Position numbers and translations under genes: made by a program
NCBI RefSeq assembly: GCF_003385955.1
Contig: NZ_QRDW01000004.1
Location: 186,001 to 250,000 of the forward strand
Direction: 5' to 3'
Source: Aestuariispira insulae
Lineage (GTDB): Bacteria > Pseudomonadota > Alphaproteobacteria > UBA8366 > Aestuariispiraceae
Length of the DNA: 64,000 bases
Notes under the pieces: model-generated
The model's database searches: none
The model's input: only the letters and a program-made list of their open reading frames with translations
Told to the model about the DNA's origin: nothing
In this document: in pieces, positions 41,859 through 52,383 of the stretch
Layout of the letters: the number at the start of each line of letters is the position of its first letter
Position numbering within the stretch: the first letter of the stretch is position 1

Positions 41859-43871
41859 ATGTCATTCTTGGGTGGCTTGCGTATTTCAGCTAAAATTACG
41901 CTTGCCAATATTCTGTTGCTGTCGCTTTTGCTGATTGTGGGAACAACCTCCGTCTTGAGTCTGCGACAGTCCCTGACGACCTTCGGTTCCTATCGCGAAC
42001 TAACGACCCAGGCCAATGAGGCTGCTGATGTTCTGGAAGCATTACAAAATGCCGAGAAGTCAGTGCGGGATTATGTCCTACGCCCCAACGACGAAACCAA
42101 GAATAATGTTCTGGCCAGAATTGGCGATACTTCAACGGCGATCGCCACGACCAGGGAACATGCCAAAACAGAGTTAATGAATGCCCATCTCGACCGGGCT
42201 GAGGCCTCATTGGCCGCTTTTTCCACCGTTTTTGAAAATGTTACAGCAAAACAGGCAGAGCGCGACCAACTGATTAATGTCGACCTTAGCTCGATCGGTA
42301 AGAATATCGGAACAAACCTGTTTGCCCTGATGGATACCATCAGCTTGGATGAAGATGCCTTTGTCACCTTTTTGGCCGGCGAGGTTCTTAAGGAATTCAT
42401 GGAGGCTCGTGCTCTGGTTCAGTCATTCCTGTTCCTGAATGATGAAGACTCATACGAACAAGCGACCAAGAAATTTGCGGGCTATACCAAAAAGCTGAAT
42501 GAGCTTGAGGCAGAGCTACAGAAAAAACATAAAGCGACCTGGAACAAAGCGGTTCGGGATACCGAGAAATACCTGCCGCTGTTGCAAGAGGCCAAAGAGA
42601 TTATTGGCGCGAGAAATAGTCTGATTGAAAACGATCTGGCACAAAGCAGCCGGGAACTGGCCGCTGTGGTGCATGCCCTGAAGGCTGATGTTTTGGTTGA
42701 ACAGGATGGACTTGGCCAAGAGGCGGAAGAGGTCGTTAGTTTTGCCACCCGCAATGTTGTGATTGTCGCGGTGATCAGCGTGGTTTTTGCCATTGGTCTT
42801 GCCTATGTCCTCAGTCGCGGGATTGCGACACCGATCGCAGCTATGACCCGTGCGATGACAGGTCTGGCGCGTGGTGACTTGGATCTGGAGATCCCGGCTA
42901 AGAACCGCGGGGATGAAGTGGGGCGCATGGCCCAGGCAGTACAAATCTTCAAGGAAAATGCCCTGCAGATGCAGGAAATGGAAACGCAGCGTGAACGTCA
43001 GCGTGAAGAGTCTGAGGCCGAAAAGAGACGCCTGATGACCAAATTGGCCGATGATTTTGAAACGTCGGTCGGCCAAATTGTTGAACAGGTCTCGCACCGT
43101 TCAGAAGAGATGAAAAACAGTTCTGCCTCGCTATCACAATTGGCGAACCGAACGTCGGACCAAAGCCAGTCCGTAGCTAAAACAGCCGAATCTGCTTCCA
43201 CAAATACCCAGGCTGTTGCTTCCGCGGCAGAAGAGCTTGCGGCATCAATTCGTGAGATCAGTGATCAGGTCTCCCAATCCAGTGTTGTTTCCGGCGATGC
43301 GGTAAAGGATGCCCACACGACCCAGGATCTGGTGAAAAGCCTTGAACAGACGGCAAATAATGTCGGTAGTGTTGTTCAGATGATTACCGAGATTGCAGAT
43401 CAAACAAACCTTCTGGCTTTGAATGCCACCATTGAGGCCGCTCGCGCTGGAGAAGCAGGTAAAGGATTTGCGGTTGTGGCCAACGAAGTCAAATCCCTGG
43501 CATCGCAAACCGGCAAAGCTACAGAGCAGATCACATCTCAAATCAATGAGATACAGGGCGCCACCTCACAGGTGGTACGCTCTATTGAGGGAATATCGGA
43601 AGCCATTGGCCGCATGGATACCATTGCGGCGACCATCGCGGCTGCGGTGGAACAACAGGGGGCAGCCACCCAGGAAATTGCCCGCAATGTCCAGGTTGTC
43701 TCCGGTAATACGCAGGAAGTCTCTGACATTATCCAGGATGTGAACCGGGCAGCCCAGGATTCAGGTTCTGCAACCGATATGGCCCTGGAATCTGCTCAGG
43801 CCCTTTCCGAGCAGGCCAGCCATCTGAAACAGGAAATCCAAAGCTTCCTACAGCAGATCCGAGGCCGCTAA
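41859..43871 (+). CDS. Methyl-accepting chemotaxis protein
   Basis: A 670-residue chemoreceptor. It has a membrane segment at about residues 12-34, a long helical periplasmic sensor of roughly 270 residues, a second membrane segment near 297-320, a HAMP domain ([19 protein letters not shown]), and a cytoplasmic coiled coil whose hairpin contains [20 protein letters not shown], the CheA/CheW contact tip. No C-terminal NWETF-type pentapeptide for CheR/CheB is present. The sensor is not a family I can name from sequence; the ligand is unknown. No cheA/cheW is near. AAAGAGGGG is its Shine-Dalgarno. Stops overlap with the convergent CoA-transferase gene. Confidence 0.92.
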
Positions 43872-44929
43872 TCCAGAAGACTATTATTTTCTCCAAGTGC
43901 CGGGGCAGGGGGTAATACCCTGGTCCCGGCTACGGCTTCACAGACAGGCAAATTGATACCATCATCATGGAATTGGGATGCTTCCGCCATCGTGCGGATC
44001 AAAGAGACACAGACATCTTCACCATCAAATAGTGTCATCCAATGATCATGGTTCTTATTAGACAGAATATTCGCAGTTCTTTCGATGACATAGGGGCCAT
44101 CAACCGATTTTGGCCTCATATCGGCGGGCAACTGGATCAGATCGCAAAACCGATTCCAGAATTTGTCTTCCAGAGCCGCAACGGCCAGATAGCGGTTATC
44201 TGCAGTTTGATAGATCTGATAGCGGGCAGAGCCGCCCGAAAGCAGCGATCCATTTGTGTCCGGTCCGGAAGGATCTGCACCGATTTCCGCCAGGGCCCAC
44301 CACATCCAGGGTGATAAATTTTCCGTCATGGAAATCGGCAAATAGCAACCCGAACCGATCCGATCAGACTGACGGAGTGCCAGCAGAATATTCATAACTG
44401 CCGGATAGGCGCCACCGCCGATATCGGCAATCAACCCCGGTGGAATGACAGGTTTTCCCACAGCATCACCAGTAAGCGACAGAATGCCGGAATCAGCTAA
44501 ATAATTGAGATCATGGCCCGCTTTTAAACGGTTCGGCCCGTCTGGACTGTGCCCCGAAAGAGAACAATAGACGATTGCTGGGTTGATCTTTGCCACGTCA
44601 TCATATCCCAGGCCAAGCCGATCCATGACCCCCGGGCGGAACTGTTCGATCAGGATTTGGCTTTGGCGGATGAGCGGAGAAAGTTTATCCAGGATATCAG
44701 TCTCTTTTAGATCAATGGCCAGGCTTTTCTTTCCCTTGTTCAAATACTGAAAAGAAAGACCACCCTTCGCATCAAAGGGCGGGTAATGCCGTAGATCATC
44801 TCCCGTGATCGGACGTTCGATCTTGATCACTTCCGCACCGGCCTGGCAAAAAATCGCTGTTGCCAGCGGGCCTGGTAATAATGTGGTAAAGTCCAGAATC
44901 CGGATATCGTCAAGCGCCCCTACCGTCAT
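43868..44929 (-). CDS. CaiB/BaiF family protein, alpha-methylacyl-CoA racemase-like
   Basis: A 353-residue family III CoA-transferase fold. Features match the alpha-methylacyl-CoA racemase branch: [23 protein letters not shown], the catalytic His in [11 protein letters not shown], Asp in IADIGGG and a Glu in VAALEDKFW, all three present. Racemases of this branch invert 2-methylacyl-CoA thioesters; CoA transfer is the alternative. It is the last gene of the six-gene operon and overlaps the GGT-like gene by TAATG. Its stop overlaps the MCP stop as CTAA. Confidence 0.87.
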
Positions 44930-46854
44930 TATGATTCCTTGGATTGCTCCGTTAAATTTTGTTTTGGTACAACAAGTTCAAATGCTTCCCTTAAGTTTTT
45001 CAGAAGGTTTTGGTCGCCAATGGCCATACCTTCCCCGCGCGGATCCACCCCGCCTTCCAAACCACGATCCTGTATCAGGCTGATCCCATGCAAACCGGTT
45101 TTTTTTGCCTGAAGACGGACAGTGTAACCGAGATTACGCAATCTGACCGCCAGTTCGGCCAGGGAGGATTTAACCTCAAGGTGGATGGCTCCGTCGGCAT
45201 AGCTGAATTGGGGCAGGGAAACCGCATTTTGCAGGCTTAAGCCCCAATCCAGGACAGCAACCAGCACGCGGGCAACGTAAAGGGCGGATTGATCGTCCCC
45301 TGCGGCACCCAGCGCCAAGATAGGCCGATCTTGCGGATCAAAAACGATGACCGGTGCCCAGGATGCAGCTGGTCGTTTTCCAGGCTCAATACGGTTTCTA
45401 ACAGGAACACCATGTTCGGTATTATGTTTTGAAAACCCAAGCAAAGCGCTGTTCAGGGGCAAGCCATGCACCCAATGACCGGAGCCAAAACGAGTCTCCA
45501 ACCCACTGGTCAACAGTGCAAAATTGCCCATTTTATCCCGGGCCACGATTTGGGTGGCGGTGCCGGGCGGAAGGGCCTTTTGCCGACCGTAGCGAAGATT
45601 GGATGCGCCGGGTGGATAACCGGACCGCGCATCCCCTTTTGGACCGGGCCCCAGACTGAACTCCTGTGCCCGCATTGCCAGATACCGGCTTTCAACCAGG
45701 CCGCCCGACGGGACATCAACATAGTCCATATCCGCCACGTAAAGATCATGATCAGCAATTGCAAGACGGGCTGCTTCCGCAATCATTTGCACGGCCGCTA
45801 CTGAATCCGGACTTTCCTTGTCAATGGGATGATGTTCGAGCATTCCCATGATTTGTAAAACCGACAGGCTGCCAGAGATTGGCGGCCCCATACCGCAAAT
45901 ACGGTAGCCACGATAGGAAATGCAAATGGTGTTGCGCTCTTTGGGCTGGTAGGACGCTAAATCCCCCTTCGACATGCTGCCGGGAATGCCTGGCGCATGG
46001 TTAATCGTCTGAACCAAACTGTCTGCCATCGGCCCATGATAAAATGCGCCATAACCGCATTGTGCGATGACATTCAAGAATGACGCGAATTCAGTATTCT
46101 TTATCAGGCTGCCGATCTGGAGCTGGCGGGACAGGGCGTCTTTTATGGGATTGGATCGGCTGTTCTCCCGCTCAACCACCTGTGTTTTCCTGATCTCTTT
46201 ATGCAGTGCCGGGCTTAGGGGAAAACCGTTTTTTGACAAAAAAATGGCATCTCCCAAAACCTGCTCCAGGGGAAATTCGCCATGTCGCGCATGGGCATGC
46301 CCCAACAAAGACATCAGGCCGGGCACGAGAATGGTCGCGCCGCTATTGCTAACCTCATCCAAGGCACGTTCAGAGCCATCTGGGTTCAGAAAAATTCGCC
46401 GATCCACGGCCAATGGTGCCATGCCACGCCCATCATACGCGTATAATCTTTGCGCGGCTTCATCCCAATAGATCAGAGCACCGTCGCCGCCAAAACCGCT
46501 GGATTGTGGCATTACAAGGTTCAAGATCGCCTGTGCGGCAAAAACCGAATCAACGGCGTTTCCACCCTCATGGAGCAATCGCGCACCGGCTTGGGAGGCG
46601 GCCGGGTGGGCCGCGGTGATCATGTAACCTTTTGAAATGGCGCGGGCTGTTCTTTCCTCACGCAGTGGATCAGGAGGGAGGACCTCTTCAATGCCTGCCG
46701 GCGCCAGCAGGTCTACATCGCGATACGGGCTAAGCCATTGGTCCATGGCATGCCCTCCGGCATATACACCTGTTGCTATCGCGATAGACACGAATACTGC
46801 TGGAAGATTTCCAGACTTTGCCCGCTTGGTCACAGAGCCGTTCCCACCAGTCAC
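44929..46854 (-). CDS. Gamma-glutamyltranspeptidase-like protein, active-site Thr apparently lost
   Basis: A 641-residue Ntn-hydrolase of the gamma-glutamyltransferase family with an N-terminal membrane anchor or signal segment (AVFVSIAIATGVYAG). The large-subunit signature AAHPAASQAGARLLHEGGNAVDS and Arg143 in DGRGMAP are conserved. At the autoprocessing site, where active enzymes read TTHxSVVD, this one reads TATQIVARD (432-440); aligned without gaps on DKxGN, Ala433 occupies the nucleophile position. The substrate residue of the DDFS motif (LLGFS here) and the GSPGG loop (GAAGDD here) are also changed. It may be a pseudoenzyme or have different chemistry. 12 bp after the upstream gene. Confidence 0.85.
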   Translation of the reverse strand: MTGGNGSVTKRAKSGNLPAVFVSIAIATGVYAGGHAMDQWLSPYRDVDLLAPAGIEEVLPPDPLREERTARAISKGYMITAAHPAASQAGARLLHEGGNAVDSVFAAQAILNLVMPQSSGFGGDGALIYWDEAAQRLYAYDGRGMAPLAVDRRIFLNPDGSERALDEVSNSGATILVPGLMSLLGHAHARHGEFPLEQVLGDAIFLSKNGFPLSPALHKEIRKTQVVERENSRSNPIKDALSRQLQIGSLIKNTEFASFLNVIAQCGYGAFYHGPMADSLVQTINHAPGIPGSMSKGDLASYQPKERNTICISYRGYRICGMGPPISGSLSVLQIMGMLEHHPIDKESPDSVAAVQMIAEAARLAIADHDLYVADMDYVDVPSGGLVESRYLAMRAQEFSLGPGPKGDARSGYPPGASNLRYGRQKALPPGTATQIVARDKMGNFALLTSGLETRFGSGHWVHGLPLNSALLGFSKHNTEHGVPVRNRIEPGKRPAASWAPVIVFDPQDRPILALGAAGDDQSALYVARVLVAVLDWGLSLQNAVSLPQFSYADGAIHLEVKSSLAELAVRLRNLGYTVRLQAKKTGLHGISLIQDRGLEGGVDPRGEGMAIGDQNLLKNLREAFELVVPKQNLTEQSKES

Positions 46855-46866
46855 ACAAAAACCCAG

Positions 46867-47253
46867 TTATTCAGAGGCCAAAAGTTCCTTGCCCGCTTTG
46901 GTCAGCTTGCAAACAAGCCACTCTTGTTTCAGGGGGTTGTTGAACCAGGGCTCCGCCCATCCATGATCGATACAGGACTGAATGGTCCGGTCACTGTAGC
47001 GTTGTCCATTCTGATTGAACAGCGGCAATTTACCACCTGGCTGTTCAAGGCCACGGGACAAATATTCCCGTTGGGTTGCAGTTGGTCTCGCACTTCCAGA
47101 CGTTGGCGATGGTTTTACATCTTTTAGCAGAATGATGTCTGGATCGCTGGCCATTGTCTGTAATGCCTCATGATCGGGATTTTCAGGTTTCAGCTTTTCG
47201 GACGCTAGCCAGCCTATCATGTCCTGCGATCTAGGTGAATATGATCCCGCCAT
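46867..47253 (-). CDS. Hypothetical protein, 128 residues
   Basis: I do not recognise this protein. The N-terminal half is polar and probably disordered, with a Pro/Ser/Thr-rich stretch. The C-terminal half (from ATQREYLSRGLEQPGGKLP to LTKAGKELLASE) looks like a small winged-helix fold ending in a beta-hairpin typical of DNA-binding wHTH domains, but this is a guess from pattern. It lies 31 bp after the HD gene and 12 bp before the GGT-like gene in one operon. Confidence 0.7.
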   Translation of the reverse strand: MAGSYSPRSQDMIGWLASEKLKPENPDHEALQTMASDPDIILLKDVKPSPTSGSARPTATQREYLSRGLEQPGGKLPLFNQNGQRYSDRTIQSCIDHGWAEPWFNNPLKQEWLVCKLTKAGKELLASE

Positions 47254-47284
47254 CCAATCAGCACAAATTGCTAGGCAGCAGGCA

Positions 47285-47878
47285 TCACCGTTCCAATTCG
47301 CCCATCAGCGCGTGAAACCGGTCCAGAAATGCCTGTTTTGCCTGGCCGGTAGAAAGTGGCGTGACATCCAGGGAGATCTCTAATTGGGGCTTTCCCCAGA
47401 TTTTCTTAGCCTCAGCTTCCGAGAAACCGGCAATTTGGATTGCTTCAAAAAAAGCGGATATCCGATCTGCGGATTTAATCAGCCGGTGGATTTTATTCGG
47501 GGTTTTCGCTGGCAGTCCAAACCTCAAATGGATCGCTTCTTCAAGCCTTTGTTCGAAATTCTTAAAATCAACGCCTATGGCTGATTTGAAAGGCGAGATC
47601 ATATCGCCAATCACATATTCAGGTGCATCATGCAGCAATGCGATCAGACGCCATTGAATATCCAAATGCGGCTGAAGGTTGCCGGATATCTCTTCCACCA
47701 GTACCGAATGCTGGGCGACGGAAAAAGCCCAATCTCCTTCGGTCTGGCCATTCCAGCGTGCAACGCGGGCCAAACCGTGGGCAATATCCTCAATTTCGAT
47801 ATCGACCGGAGAAGGATCCAGAAGATCCAGTCGCCGGCCGCTTAGCATTCTCTGCCAGGCTCTTTTAGCTTTTGCCAC
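47285..47878 (-). CDS. HD-domain hydrolase, YfbR-like
   Basis: A 197-residue HD phosphohydrolase. The metal-binding motifs are visible: AQHSVLV, ALLHDAPEYVIGDM and KSADRISAFFEA, in the order found in YfbR-type 5'-deoxynucleotidases, which hydrolyse dNMPs. The substrate is not certain. Translation begins at GTG 47878, two bases after the preceding gene's stop, so coupling is likely. Confidence 0.85.
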   Translation of the reverse strand: MAKAKRAWQRMLSGRRLDLLDPSPVDIEIEDIAHGLARVARWNGQTEGDWAFSVAQHSVLVEEISGNLQPHLDIQWRLIALLHDAPEYVIGDMISPFKSAIGVDFKNFEQRLEEAIHLRFGLPAKTPNKIHRLIKSADRISAFFEAIQIAGFSEAEAKKIWGKPQLEISLDVTPLSTGQAKQAFLDRFHALMGELER

Positions 47879-47880
47879 AG

Positions 47881-48660
47881 TTATCGGTCCAAATACTGTT
47901 CTGCCCAGGTGAGGCCGTCTTGTGTTGCGCCCATGGGGTTATATTCACATCCAATCCAATCCCGGTAGCCCACATCATGGATGGCTTTGAATATAGCTTT
48001 GAGATCCAGTGTTCCGAGATTCGGTTCATTGCGGTCCGGCACACCGGCAATTTGAATATGCCCGATATAGTTCCGGAATTGCTCAATCGCGCCGACGGTA
48101 TCGCCTTCCACGATTTCCCGATGATATAGATCAAGTTGCAGTTTGACATTGGGCTGGCCCAGCCGGTCTATCAGATTGGCAACCTCAGAGGTTCGGCTAT
48201 AGAGATATCCCGGCATATCTCCGGGATTCAGAGGCTCCAGCAGGAGTGTGATGTTATTTTTCGCAGCCAGCAGGGCTGCCCACTGAAGGTTTCGTGCCAG
48301 GACGGCATAACAATCATGTGCTCCATATCCCACCGGTATGTTACCTGCCATCACATGGATCCTGGGGCAGTTGAGGTTGGCGGCATAGCTTAAGGCTAAT
48401 TGGAAACTCTGTTGAAATTCCTCTTCACGGCCGGGCAGGGCGGCAATACCGCGCTCTCCGTTTTTCCAATCGCCTGGCGGCGCGTTAAAAAGAACCGATT
48501 CTAGCTTGGCTTCCTTGAGCCAGTTTTTGATTTCTTCTGCAGGATTGCCGTAGGGAAAGAGAAACTCTACACCATGAAAGCCGCAGGCCGCTGCCGCTTG
48601 AAATCTGTCCTGGAAGGATAATTCCGGGAAGAGAAAAGACAGATTGGCAGAAAGCTTCAT
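47881..48660 (-). CDS. hyi: Hydroxypyruvate isomerase family protein
   Basis: A 259-residue TIM-barrel protein of the xylose-isomerase-like superfamily. The start MKLSANLSFLFPELSFQDR, HVMAGN, LLLEPLN (catalytic Glu), LQLDLYH, and IQIAGVPDRNEP are typical of Hyi, which interconverts hydroxypyruvate and tartronate semialdehyde. No glyoxylate-pathway genes lie nearby, so another ketose-like substrate is possible. Its ATG overlaps the stop of the NlpC/P60 gene (ATGA). Confidence 0.85.
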   Translation of the reverse strand: MKLSANLSFLFPELSFQDRFQAAAACGFHGVEFLFPYGNPAEEIKNWLKEAKLESVLFNAPPGDWKNGERGIAALPGREEEFQQSFQLALSYAANLNCPRIHVMAGNIPVGYGAHDCYAVLARNLQWAALLAAKNNITLLLEPLNPGDMPGYLYSRTSEVANLIDRLGQPNVKLQLDLYHREIVEGDTVGAIEQFRNYIGHIQIAGVPDRNEPNLGTLDLKAIFKAIHDVGYRDWIGCEYNPMGATQDGLTWAEQYLDR

Positions 48661-49529
48661 GCCAGTTCCTCCAGGCGGCGGATGCTGCTGATCTCAGTTC
48701 CTTCGATTTCTTTGATATGGGCCGAAACCTTCTCCAGCGGCGCAATGGAAGTTTTCATGTCGGTGGCATTGGCATGGATGAGCGAGGAATCGTCCATCAT
48801 GATGCCCACATGGCCCGGCCAGAAGACAAGATCATTTCTTTTGAGACCTGAATGGTCTGCGTTGATTGTTATTGATTCACCGACGCTATATTCCTGCTGG
48901 TCGGTGTCTCTTTTGGCCATGATTCCAGCCCGGAGCAGGGCCAATTGAACGAGCCCGGAACAGTCCAGACCAAGATAGCTGTTCCCGCCCCAGAGATAGG
49001 GGGATTCGAGAAATTTTGACGCGGTTTCAGCCAGATCCGGCTGCGTCACGCCGCGCGAGGCCAAATGGCGCGAATAAACCCAGCCTCCATTCGCCAATTT
49101 TGAAAATTTTTCATTTTTTTCAATGATCTCGACATGGCTTCCTAGAGATAACGTAAAGATTGGATGCCGTTTTATATCCGGTTCAGGAAAGATCAGGCTG
49201 AATGCGGATGACACCAAATGGGTCGGGTTCGTGGTTCCTGTGTTCAAATCGGACGAAGGACAATAGCCGACATAGCCATCTCGGTTATTTTGCACCCATG
49301 CCCAACCATCCTTCTCTTCGAAACAGCGGATATTGTCACCAAAAAGCAGTTGGCTATCCTGAGGAAACTCAAAACCTGGTCCTCGGCGCAAGCTCACGAC
49401 AGGAGCCGTCACATGAAACGCGCTGCCCTCGGTGTAACGTTCCGCAACAACATCATCGCGCAGTTCCATCGCGGCTAAATCAGGCCGATAAGCATTCAAT
49501 CTTTTATCTGGAGCGGTGACGTCATTCAT
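48657..49529 (-). CDS. NlpC/P60 cysteine peptidase with SH3 domains
   Basis: A 290-residue peptidase probably acting on peptidoglycan peptides. Two bacterial SH3-like segments (about residues 35-160) precede an NlpC/P60 domain with the Cys in LGLDCSGLVQLALLRAG, the His in FWPGHVGIM and the third polar residue, His in LIHANA. The arrangement resembles the YkfC-type gamma-D-glutamyl-diamino-acid endopeptidase, which works on recycled muropeptides in the cytoplasm; absence of a signal peptide agrees. First gene of the six-gene leftward operon. Confidence 0.9.
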   Translation of the reverse strand: MNDVTAPDKRLNAYRPDLAAMELRDDVVAERYTEGSAFHVTAPVVSLRRGPGFEFPQDSQLLFGDNIRCFEEKDGWAWVQNNRDGYVGYCPSSDLNTGTTNPTHLVSSAFSLIFPEPDIKRHPIFTLSLGSHVEIIEKNEKFSKLANGGWVYSRHLASRGVTQPDLAETASKFLESPYLWGGNSYLGLDCSGLVQLALLRAGIMAKRDTDQQEYSVGESITINADHSGLKRNDLVFWPGHVGIMMDDSSLIHANATDMKTSIAPLEKVSAHIKEIEGTEISSIRRLEELA

Positions 49530-52143: not shown

Positions 52144-52383
52144 TCAGTTAAATGCCTTGAAGGTAATAATGGTGAATGTGTCCCTGATACCGGCAAGCGG
52201 TTGGATGCTTTCATTCACAAAATGACCAATGTCTTCATCGGCCGGAAGATAACATTTCATCATGAGATCATAATGGCCGGACGTGGAATAGACTTCGGAA
52301 ACCTGTTCAACTTCAATGGCAGCATCGGCAACCTTGTAAGCCTGCCCCAATTCACATTTTACCTGAATGAAGATGGTTTGCAT
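52144..52383 (-). CDS. Stand-alone Lrp/AsnC ligand-binding (RAM) domain
   Basis: A 79-residue protein containing only the RAM (ligand-binding and oligomerisation) domain of Lrp/AsnC regulators: FIQVKCELGQAYKVADA, VSEVYSTSGHYDLMMKCY and IRDTFTIITF. No helix-turn-helix is encoded upstream in frame, so it cannot bind DNA alone; such proteins may sense amino acids or modulate full-length Lrp proteins. It is 26 bp behind the DEAD-box helicase gene and likely cotranscribed. Confidence 0.88.
   Translation of the reverse strand: MQTIFIQVKCELGQAYKVADAAIEVEQVSEVYSTSGHYDLMMKCYLPADEDIGHFVNESIQPLAGIRDTFTIITFKAFN

Follow-up and report, generated by a model that had tools for sequence, protein, structure and literature searches.

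Gamma-glutamyltransferases (GGTs; PF01019), such as those of E. coli and B. licheniformis, carry a threonine nucleophile where the small subunit begins and an oxyanion-hole Gly-Gly pair within a full-length GGT fold. An excerpt of PMC8062742 describes the nucleophile mutants T391A, T380A and T399A, from three enzymes, as showing neither autoprocessing nor detectable activity; engineered precursors of this kind are represented in the PDB by 2e0w (T391A) and 4y23 (T399A). Among NlpC/P60 peptidases, the YkfC-like subfamily is marked, in the excerpted part of PMC2954226, by a catalytic dyad together with Asp256 and SH3b Tyr118. Relatives of both enzymes are encoded in a run of six leftward genes of the alphaproteobacterium Aestuariispira insulae, within a stretch of 64,000 nucleotides (contig NZ_QRDW01000004.1, positions 186,001 to 250,000), called the window below. 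The GGT-like protein of this run has an alanine at the nucleophile position and lacks much of the substrate pocket. We read the run as a family-level patchwork in which catalysis has been lost from the GGT member, and not as a new pathway, with a probability of about 0.78. The six genes, in window coordinates, are:

Gene 1, 48657..49529, minus strand: NlpC/P60 YkfC-type cysteine peptidase with an SH3 domain (Pfam SH3_16 and NLPC_P60)
Gene 2, 47881..48660, minus strand: Hyi/OtnI-like TIM-barrel sugar isomerase (Pfam AP_endonuc_2)
Gene 3, 47285..47878, minus strand: HD-domain protein, YfbR-like (Pfam YfbR-like and HD)
Gene 4, 46867..47154 (open reading frame, ORF, listed to 47253), minus strand: small winged-helix-like (wHTH-like) protein of no named family
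Gene 5, 44929..46854, minus strand: GGT-like protein, a putative GGT-fold pseudoenzyme (Pfam G_glu_transpept, 329.6 bits)
Gene 6, 43868..44929, minus strand: alpha-methylacyl-CoA racemase (AMACR)-like member of CoA-transferase family III (Pfam CoA_transf_3)

The GGT-like protein was compared with 33 homologues. The other 13 genomes of the family to which the window genome belongs (hereafter f1) contributed one sequence apiece, the window genome itself a second copy (copy 2), and 18 additional genomes the remaining 19. With the window copy these make up 34 of 60 search matches; the stronger matches of G028, G029, G035 and G052 and 22 matches under 213 bits were omitted. The catalytic Thr391 column holds threonine in all 33 homologues and Ala433 in the window protein, and the oxyanion-hole Gly484 column holds glycine in all 33 and Asp520 in the window protein. 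The Ser462 column (Ser in 33/33) is occupied by alanine and the His393 column (His in 33/33) by glutamine. Furthermore, glycine replaces the aspartate found in 31 of 33 homologues at the Asp433 column, and alanine replaces the glutamine found in 25 of 33 at Gln430. The Glu in the Asn411 column is shared with 29 of the 33. The full-length fold, by prediction, and the Arg114 equivalent are thus common to the window protein and active GGTs, which differ from it in having the threonine nucleophile, the intact oxyanion pair and the Gln430, Asp433 and Ser462 equivalents.

The losses are not spread evenly over the protein. Of 96 columns conserved at 95% or more among the 33 homologues, the window copy keeps 76 and loses 20, compared with a leave-one-out retention of 0.91 to 1.0 in the 33 others. 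Columns within 3 residues of ligand residues are lost more often (9/21) than the remainder (11/75; Fisher p = 0.008), with the ligand residues taken from an excerpt of PMC6769717 plus Thr391. The small subunit is likewise affected more heavily, with 12 of 38 columns lost against 8 of 58 elsewhere (p = 0.034).

The best PDB sequence matches of the window protein are the engineered precursors 4y23 and 2e0w, and an ungapped alignment places Ala433 directly on the engineered alanine of each. Those structures carry one laboratory change apiece, whereas the window protein carries several natural ones. The local sequence at the site, Gly-Thr-Ala-Thr-Gln, sets a threonine on either side of Ala433, and one of these could in principle serve as a shifted nucleophile in a protein that is still catalytic. 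We consider this very unlikely, as judged from the register of the strand, which aligns with the relatives gap-free after the site; the equivalents of Gly484, Gln430, Asp433 and Ser462 are lost as well. The window protein, on these residues, would neither self-cleave nor form a gamma-glutamyl-enzyme. No bacterial GGT pseudoenzyme is described in the titles and abstract openings listed by the literature searches, which covered mostly papers outside subscription and, in the largest search, the first 10 of 85 papers.

An AlphaFold2 model built on a 13-row alignment has a mean predicted local distance difference test score (pLDDT) of 75.2 and a predicted template modelling score (pTM) of 0.81. Again, the closest structures are the precursor mutants, with template modelling (TM) scores on the target of 0.88 for 4y23 and 0.86 for 2e0w. 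The training set of AlphaFold contains GGT precursor structures; therefore, the model supports the fold and not the inactive state. A hydrophobic stretch at the N-terminus, as read from the sequence, is a probable membrane anchor.

In a tree of the GGT sequences, the window copy lies in an 11-row clade (98/92) with the operon copies and the wHTH-paired copies of f1, at the end of a branch of 2.35 (median 0.38). The ratio of distances for the window genome (G000) and its relative G001 is 1.62 for GGT (9 sequences), as opposed to 0.89-1.08 for six other genes, namely gene 4, NlpC, Hyi, HD and a pair of genes adjacent to the operon. The CoA-transferase and a histidine phosphatase had too few rows. 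The GGT gene alone of the seven tested is accelerated. The window genome contains four GGT-family genes at E 1e-60, namely the window gene, copy 2 (L049:764-2521), a third member and L237 (G000:C2:9165-10900). Copy 2 keeps the checked motifs, and the third member has the threonine and is without several other residues. In the tree, copy 2 falls outside f1 and joins four sequences from a different family in the order (100/100), which may reflect horizontal transfer or an old paralogue.

The long branch, the three other GGT-family genes and the loss of 20 of 96 conserved columns, where none of the 33 others loses more than about 9%, would also be expected of a redundant, inactive gene that has lost its constraint and is on its way out. 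The state of the reading frame does not fit such decay well. It runs for 641 codons without a stop, whereas neutral decay of the G001 GGT gene, in 100 runs per level, gave a mean of 8.6 stops and never fewer than 2 at 60% identity, and a mean of 13.3 and never fewer than 5 at 42%. Window and G001 are themselves 41% identical. The control is rough because the simulation loads all divergence on one branch, part of which belongs to the G001 side. In addition, 76 of the 96 conserved columns are kept. We regard ongoing decay as doubtful, and somewhat less probable than a second form of the inactive state, which we put forward tentatively and at less than even odds: a selectively kept, permanently unprocessed, membrane-anchored protein that has exchanged catalysis for binding in the envelope or for a partner role. 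Were the dead protein kept by selection, it would parallel the T391A precursor in nature and offer a route to the non-catalytic roles of a GGT.

Several observations weigh against a loss of catalysis in the GGT member. Single changes of this type are mild in some enzymes, as listed in the excerpt of PMC8062742: T353A of GtGGT has some activity left, S460A and S461A of BlGGT raise activity, D445A of BsGGT retains 40% of hydrolysis, and G482E is 80% processed with 4% activity. The case for inactivity therefore rests on the threonine and on the sum of the losses. The equivalents of Arg114, Ser463 and Gly483 (Gly519) are kept, so that only the second glycine of the oxyanion pair is replaced. The model has pLDDT below 50 at residues 1-67, which include a helix at 21-40, at 428-430 and in parts of 471-484, and the tree program itself flags the placement of the window copy, on its long branch, as uncertain. 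The loss described here is seen in one genome, and the 14 f1 genomes include no second member of its genus.

The final point of this kind comes from the class as a whole, of which 76 genomes were searched; at E 1e-60, 54 of them contain GGT-family members. All 148 matches were aligned to the profile of the 34 sequences, and the nucleophile column is threonine in 144. The other four are the window copy (Ala), L236 (Ala), L237 (Gly) and L302 (Ala; G216:C7:20992-22762). With three further matches among the other 147, a Thr-less GGT relative is therefore uncommon and not unique. The alanine of L236 stems from a gapped alignment, and an ungapped reading gives serine. L237, from the window genome itself, and L302 have a common local pattern after the nucleophile site and may form a separate Thr-less group. 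All three resemble the window copy in lacking threonine at the aligned column, but their sequences are more divergent, and the aspartate in the Gly484 column is found only in the window copy (Gly in 130 of 148, Ser or Ala in 12, Asn in 2, uncovered in 3). We still expect the GGT-like protein to be inactive in the cell, and a name drawn from its family would label a probably dead protein a gamma-glutamyltransferase.

The first-pass annotation had proposed that the run is an undescribed metabolic system, possibly for the salvage of muropeptides or gamma-glutamyl compounds, and suggested conservation of gene order as a check. We searched 59 genomes, including that of the window, with each of the six proteins; 14 belong to f1. 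Presence was set by E-value limits of the searches, and genes were called linked when they lie on the same contig and strand with starts within 6.5 kb. All six genes are linked in only 3 of the 14 f1 genomes (G000, G001 and G007, from three genera). The individual pairs differ widely: NlpC and HD are linked in all 13 genomes having both, Hyi and HD in 10/14, wHTH and GGT in 10/13, NlpC and Hyi in 9/13, HD and wHTH in 7/13, HD and GGT in 5/14, and GGT and CoA-transferase in 3/8. Outside the three genomes with the full run, it splits chiefly into an NlpC-(Hyi)-HD part and a wHTH-like-GGT part. The Hyi-HD block stands separate from the wHTH-GGT pair in six genomes (G004 and G009-G013), with NlpC at the head of the block in all but G012, where NlpC has no match and Hyi is partial, probably owing to a contig end.

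In G001, a TauE/SafE-like gene (L033:7585-8409) that is absent from the window lies between NlpC and Hyi. G002 and G007 have a similarly sized gap, occupied by an ORF that BLAST places in one cluster with it. The flanks of the operon are syntenic in G001 too; therefore, shared descent accounts for much of the conserved order. Parts of the gene order thus hold within the family, and the complete run in 3 of the 14 genomes. In a different family, four genomes (G018, G020, G029 and G032) have HD and NlpC at a distance of roughly 5-9 kb, as read by eye.

Linkage outside f1 was followed through gene 4. A scan of its alignment against the named genomes returned 556 relatives, and neighbourhoods were taken from the best 80 of these 556 (L053-L132), reaching up to 8 kb either side, less at contig ends, with tblastn at E 1e-10. 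Other operon genes are found near gene 4 at 10 of the 80 loci, all ten assigned to f1. At 69 of the 70 loci outside f1, no other operon gene is present within the stretch searched, and the remaining locus has a CoA-transferase match of 31% identity, 7.5 kb away. The neighbours at these 70 loci, by names read by eye from the sequences, include an IHF-alpha-like ORF at 27, a MerR-like ORF at 27 and a FabH-like ORF at 25, the loci not necessarily being identical. This suggests a conserved chromosomal place for gene 4 and no functional partner. In the phylum, gene 4 is present in 3 of 120 genomes, including that of the window, all of one class.

A single salvage pathway would be in keeping with the tight spacing of the genes, the presence of a YkfC-type peptidase and the identical order in G001 and G007. 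It accords poorly with the small number of complete runs, with the lack of linkage around gene 4 beyond f1, where the only match is a distant CoA-transferase, and with a GGT member that has no nucleophile. We know of no common substrate for the Hyi, HD and racemase families, which also counts against it. One metabolic system was rejected on the module structure in f1 and the lack of linkage around gene 4 outside it, and one undescribed muropeptide or gamma-glutamyl pathway appears improbable. Members found in separate places elsewhere, which the first-pass annotation itself had named as grounds for abandoning its proposal, are seen both within f1 and around the gene 4 loci outside it. With the nucleophile and much of the substrate pocket gone from the GGT-like protein, the chief argument for gamma-glutamyl salvage falls away, and a reading of the operon as a pathway of that kind is not warranted.

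The patchwork has at its core NlpC and HD, in many genomes separated by Hyi. A few genera combine this core with the wHTH-like-GGT pair, and an AMACR-like gene closes the run. In the lineage of the window, the GGT member has on this reading turned into a single-chain, probably membrane-anchored pseudoenzyme, with relief of constraint possibly provided by the other GGT copies in the genome.

Genes 1, 2, 3 and 6 appear from their sequences to be members of ordinary kinds, and Pfam backs the names given at first pass to five of the six genes. The best PDB matches of the NlpC protein are dipeptidyl-peptidase VI proteins, with BcYkfC (3h41) fourth. Alignment to 3h41 identifies equivalents of Cys238, His291, Tyr118 and Arg255-Asp256, with the YkfC numbering inferred as chain position + 22, which puts Tyr226, Trp228, Asp237 and Cys238 on matching residues. 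The catalytic Cys and His, Asp256 and Tyr118 of the YkfC/dipeptidyl-peptidase VI subfamily are all present, in agreement with the earlier assignment as YkfC-like, and the protein is likely a gamma-D-glutamyl-diamino acid endopeptidase. Unlike YkfC systems, the run has no YkfA- or YkfB-type protein by Pfam among its other five genes.

The Hyi-like protein falls below the NCBIfam cut-offs for OxoTetrIsom (323.5 against 325 bits) and for the hydroxypyruvate isomerase equivalog (298.7 against 353.45 bits), and matches the YgbM/OtnI-type structures 3ngf and 1k77 (YgbM). The closest solved structure to the HD protein is Atu1052 (2gz4; E 9.1e-69), matched over residues 2-191 of 197, although that protein is called hypothetical in its PDB entry and the match of the HD protein to YfbR models is modest. 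It passes Pfam YfbR-like (33.7 against 25.9 bits) and remains below the NCBIfam YfbR 5'-deoxynucleotidase equivalog (21.8 against 122 bits). The protein carries what we take to be the H, HD and D motif. For the CoA-transferase III protein, the best PDB matches are the methylacyl-CoA racemases 2g04, 8rmw and 1x74. The letters at the His, Asp and Glu positions, which we take to be the racemase residues of the AMACR family, match in these alignments.

Gene 4 has no family match in Pfam or NCBIfam, in line with its earlier description as unknown, and nothing meaningful among PDB sequences (best E 0.44). It belongs to a small, highly conserved family with 30 invariant columns across 12 sequences, including that of the window, and a core carrying GWAEPWFNNP and KPDWLVCKLT. 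The model reaches block-mean pLDDT of 75-93 over residues 61-128; Foldseek returns weak MarR-like matches only (best E 0.019, TM about 0.4), with none at E 0.001. The homologues begin near a methionine that corresponds to Met34 in the 128-residue ORF; therefore, the true start is probably the ATG at 47154, 99 bp later than listed, giving a protein of 95 residues.

The ORFs, strands and five spacings given at first pass are all reproduced. The listed junctions from gene 1 to gene 6 are a 4-bp ATGA overlap, gaps of 2, 31 and 12 bp, and a 1-bp TAATG overlap. The 31 bp between HD and gene 4 holds for the listed ORF, and the later start would widen it to about 130 bp. Gene 6 and a convergent chemoreceptor gene overlap by 4 bp. 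Five terminator-like sites were identified, none of them in an inter-gene gap; the two on the operon strand both lie within gene 6. Promoter-like sites, which are consensus matches only, number 10, where chance alone would give 5.1. Four share the strand of the operon, at 68 bp upstream of gene 1, across the start of gene 6 and at two intragenic positions. The arrangement indicates that the six genes are likely co-transcribed.

Upstream of the run, a stand-alone Lrp/AsnC ligand-binding domain of 79 residues is encoded at 52144-52383; of the 20 loci compared, 10 have it at 67-86% identity.

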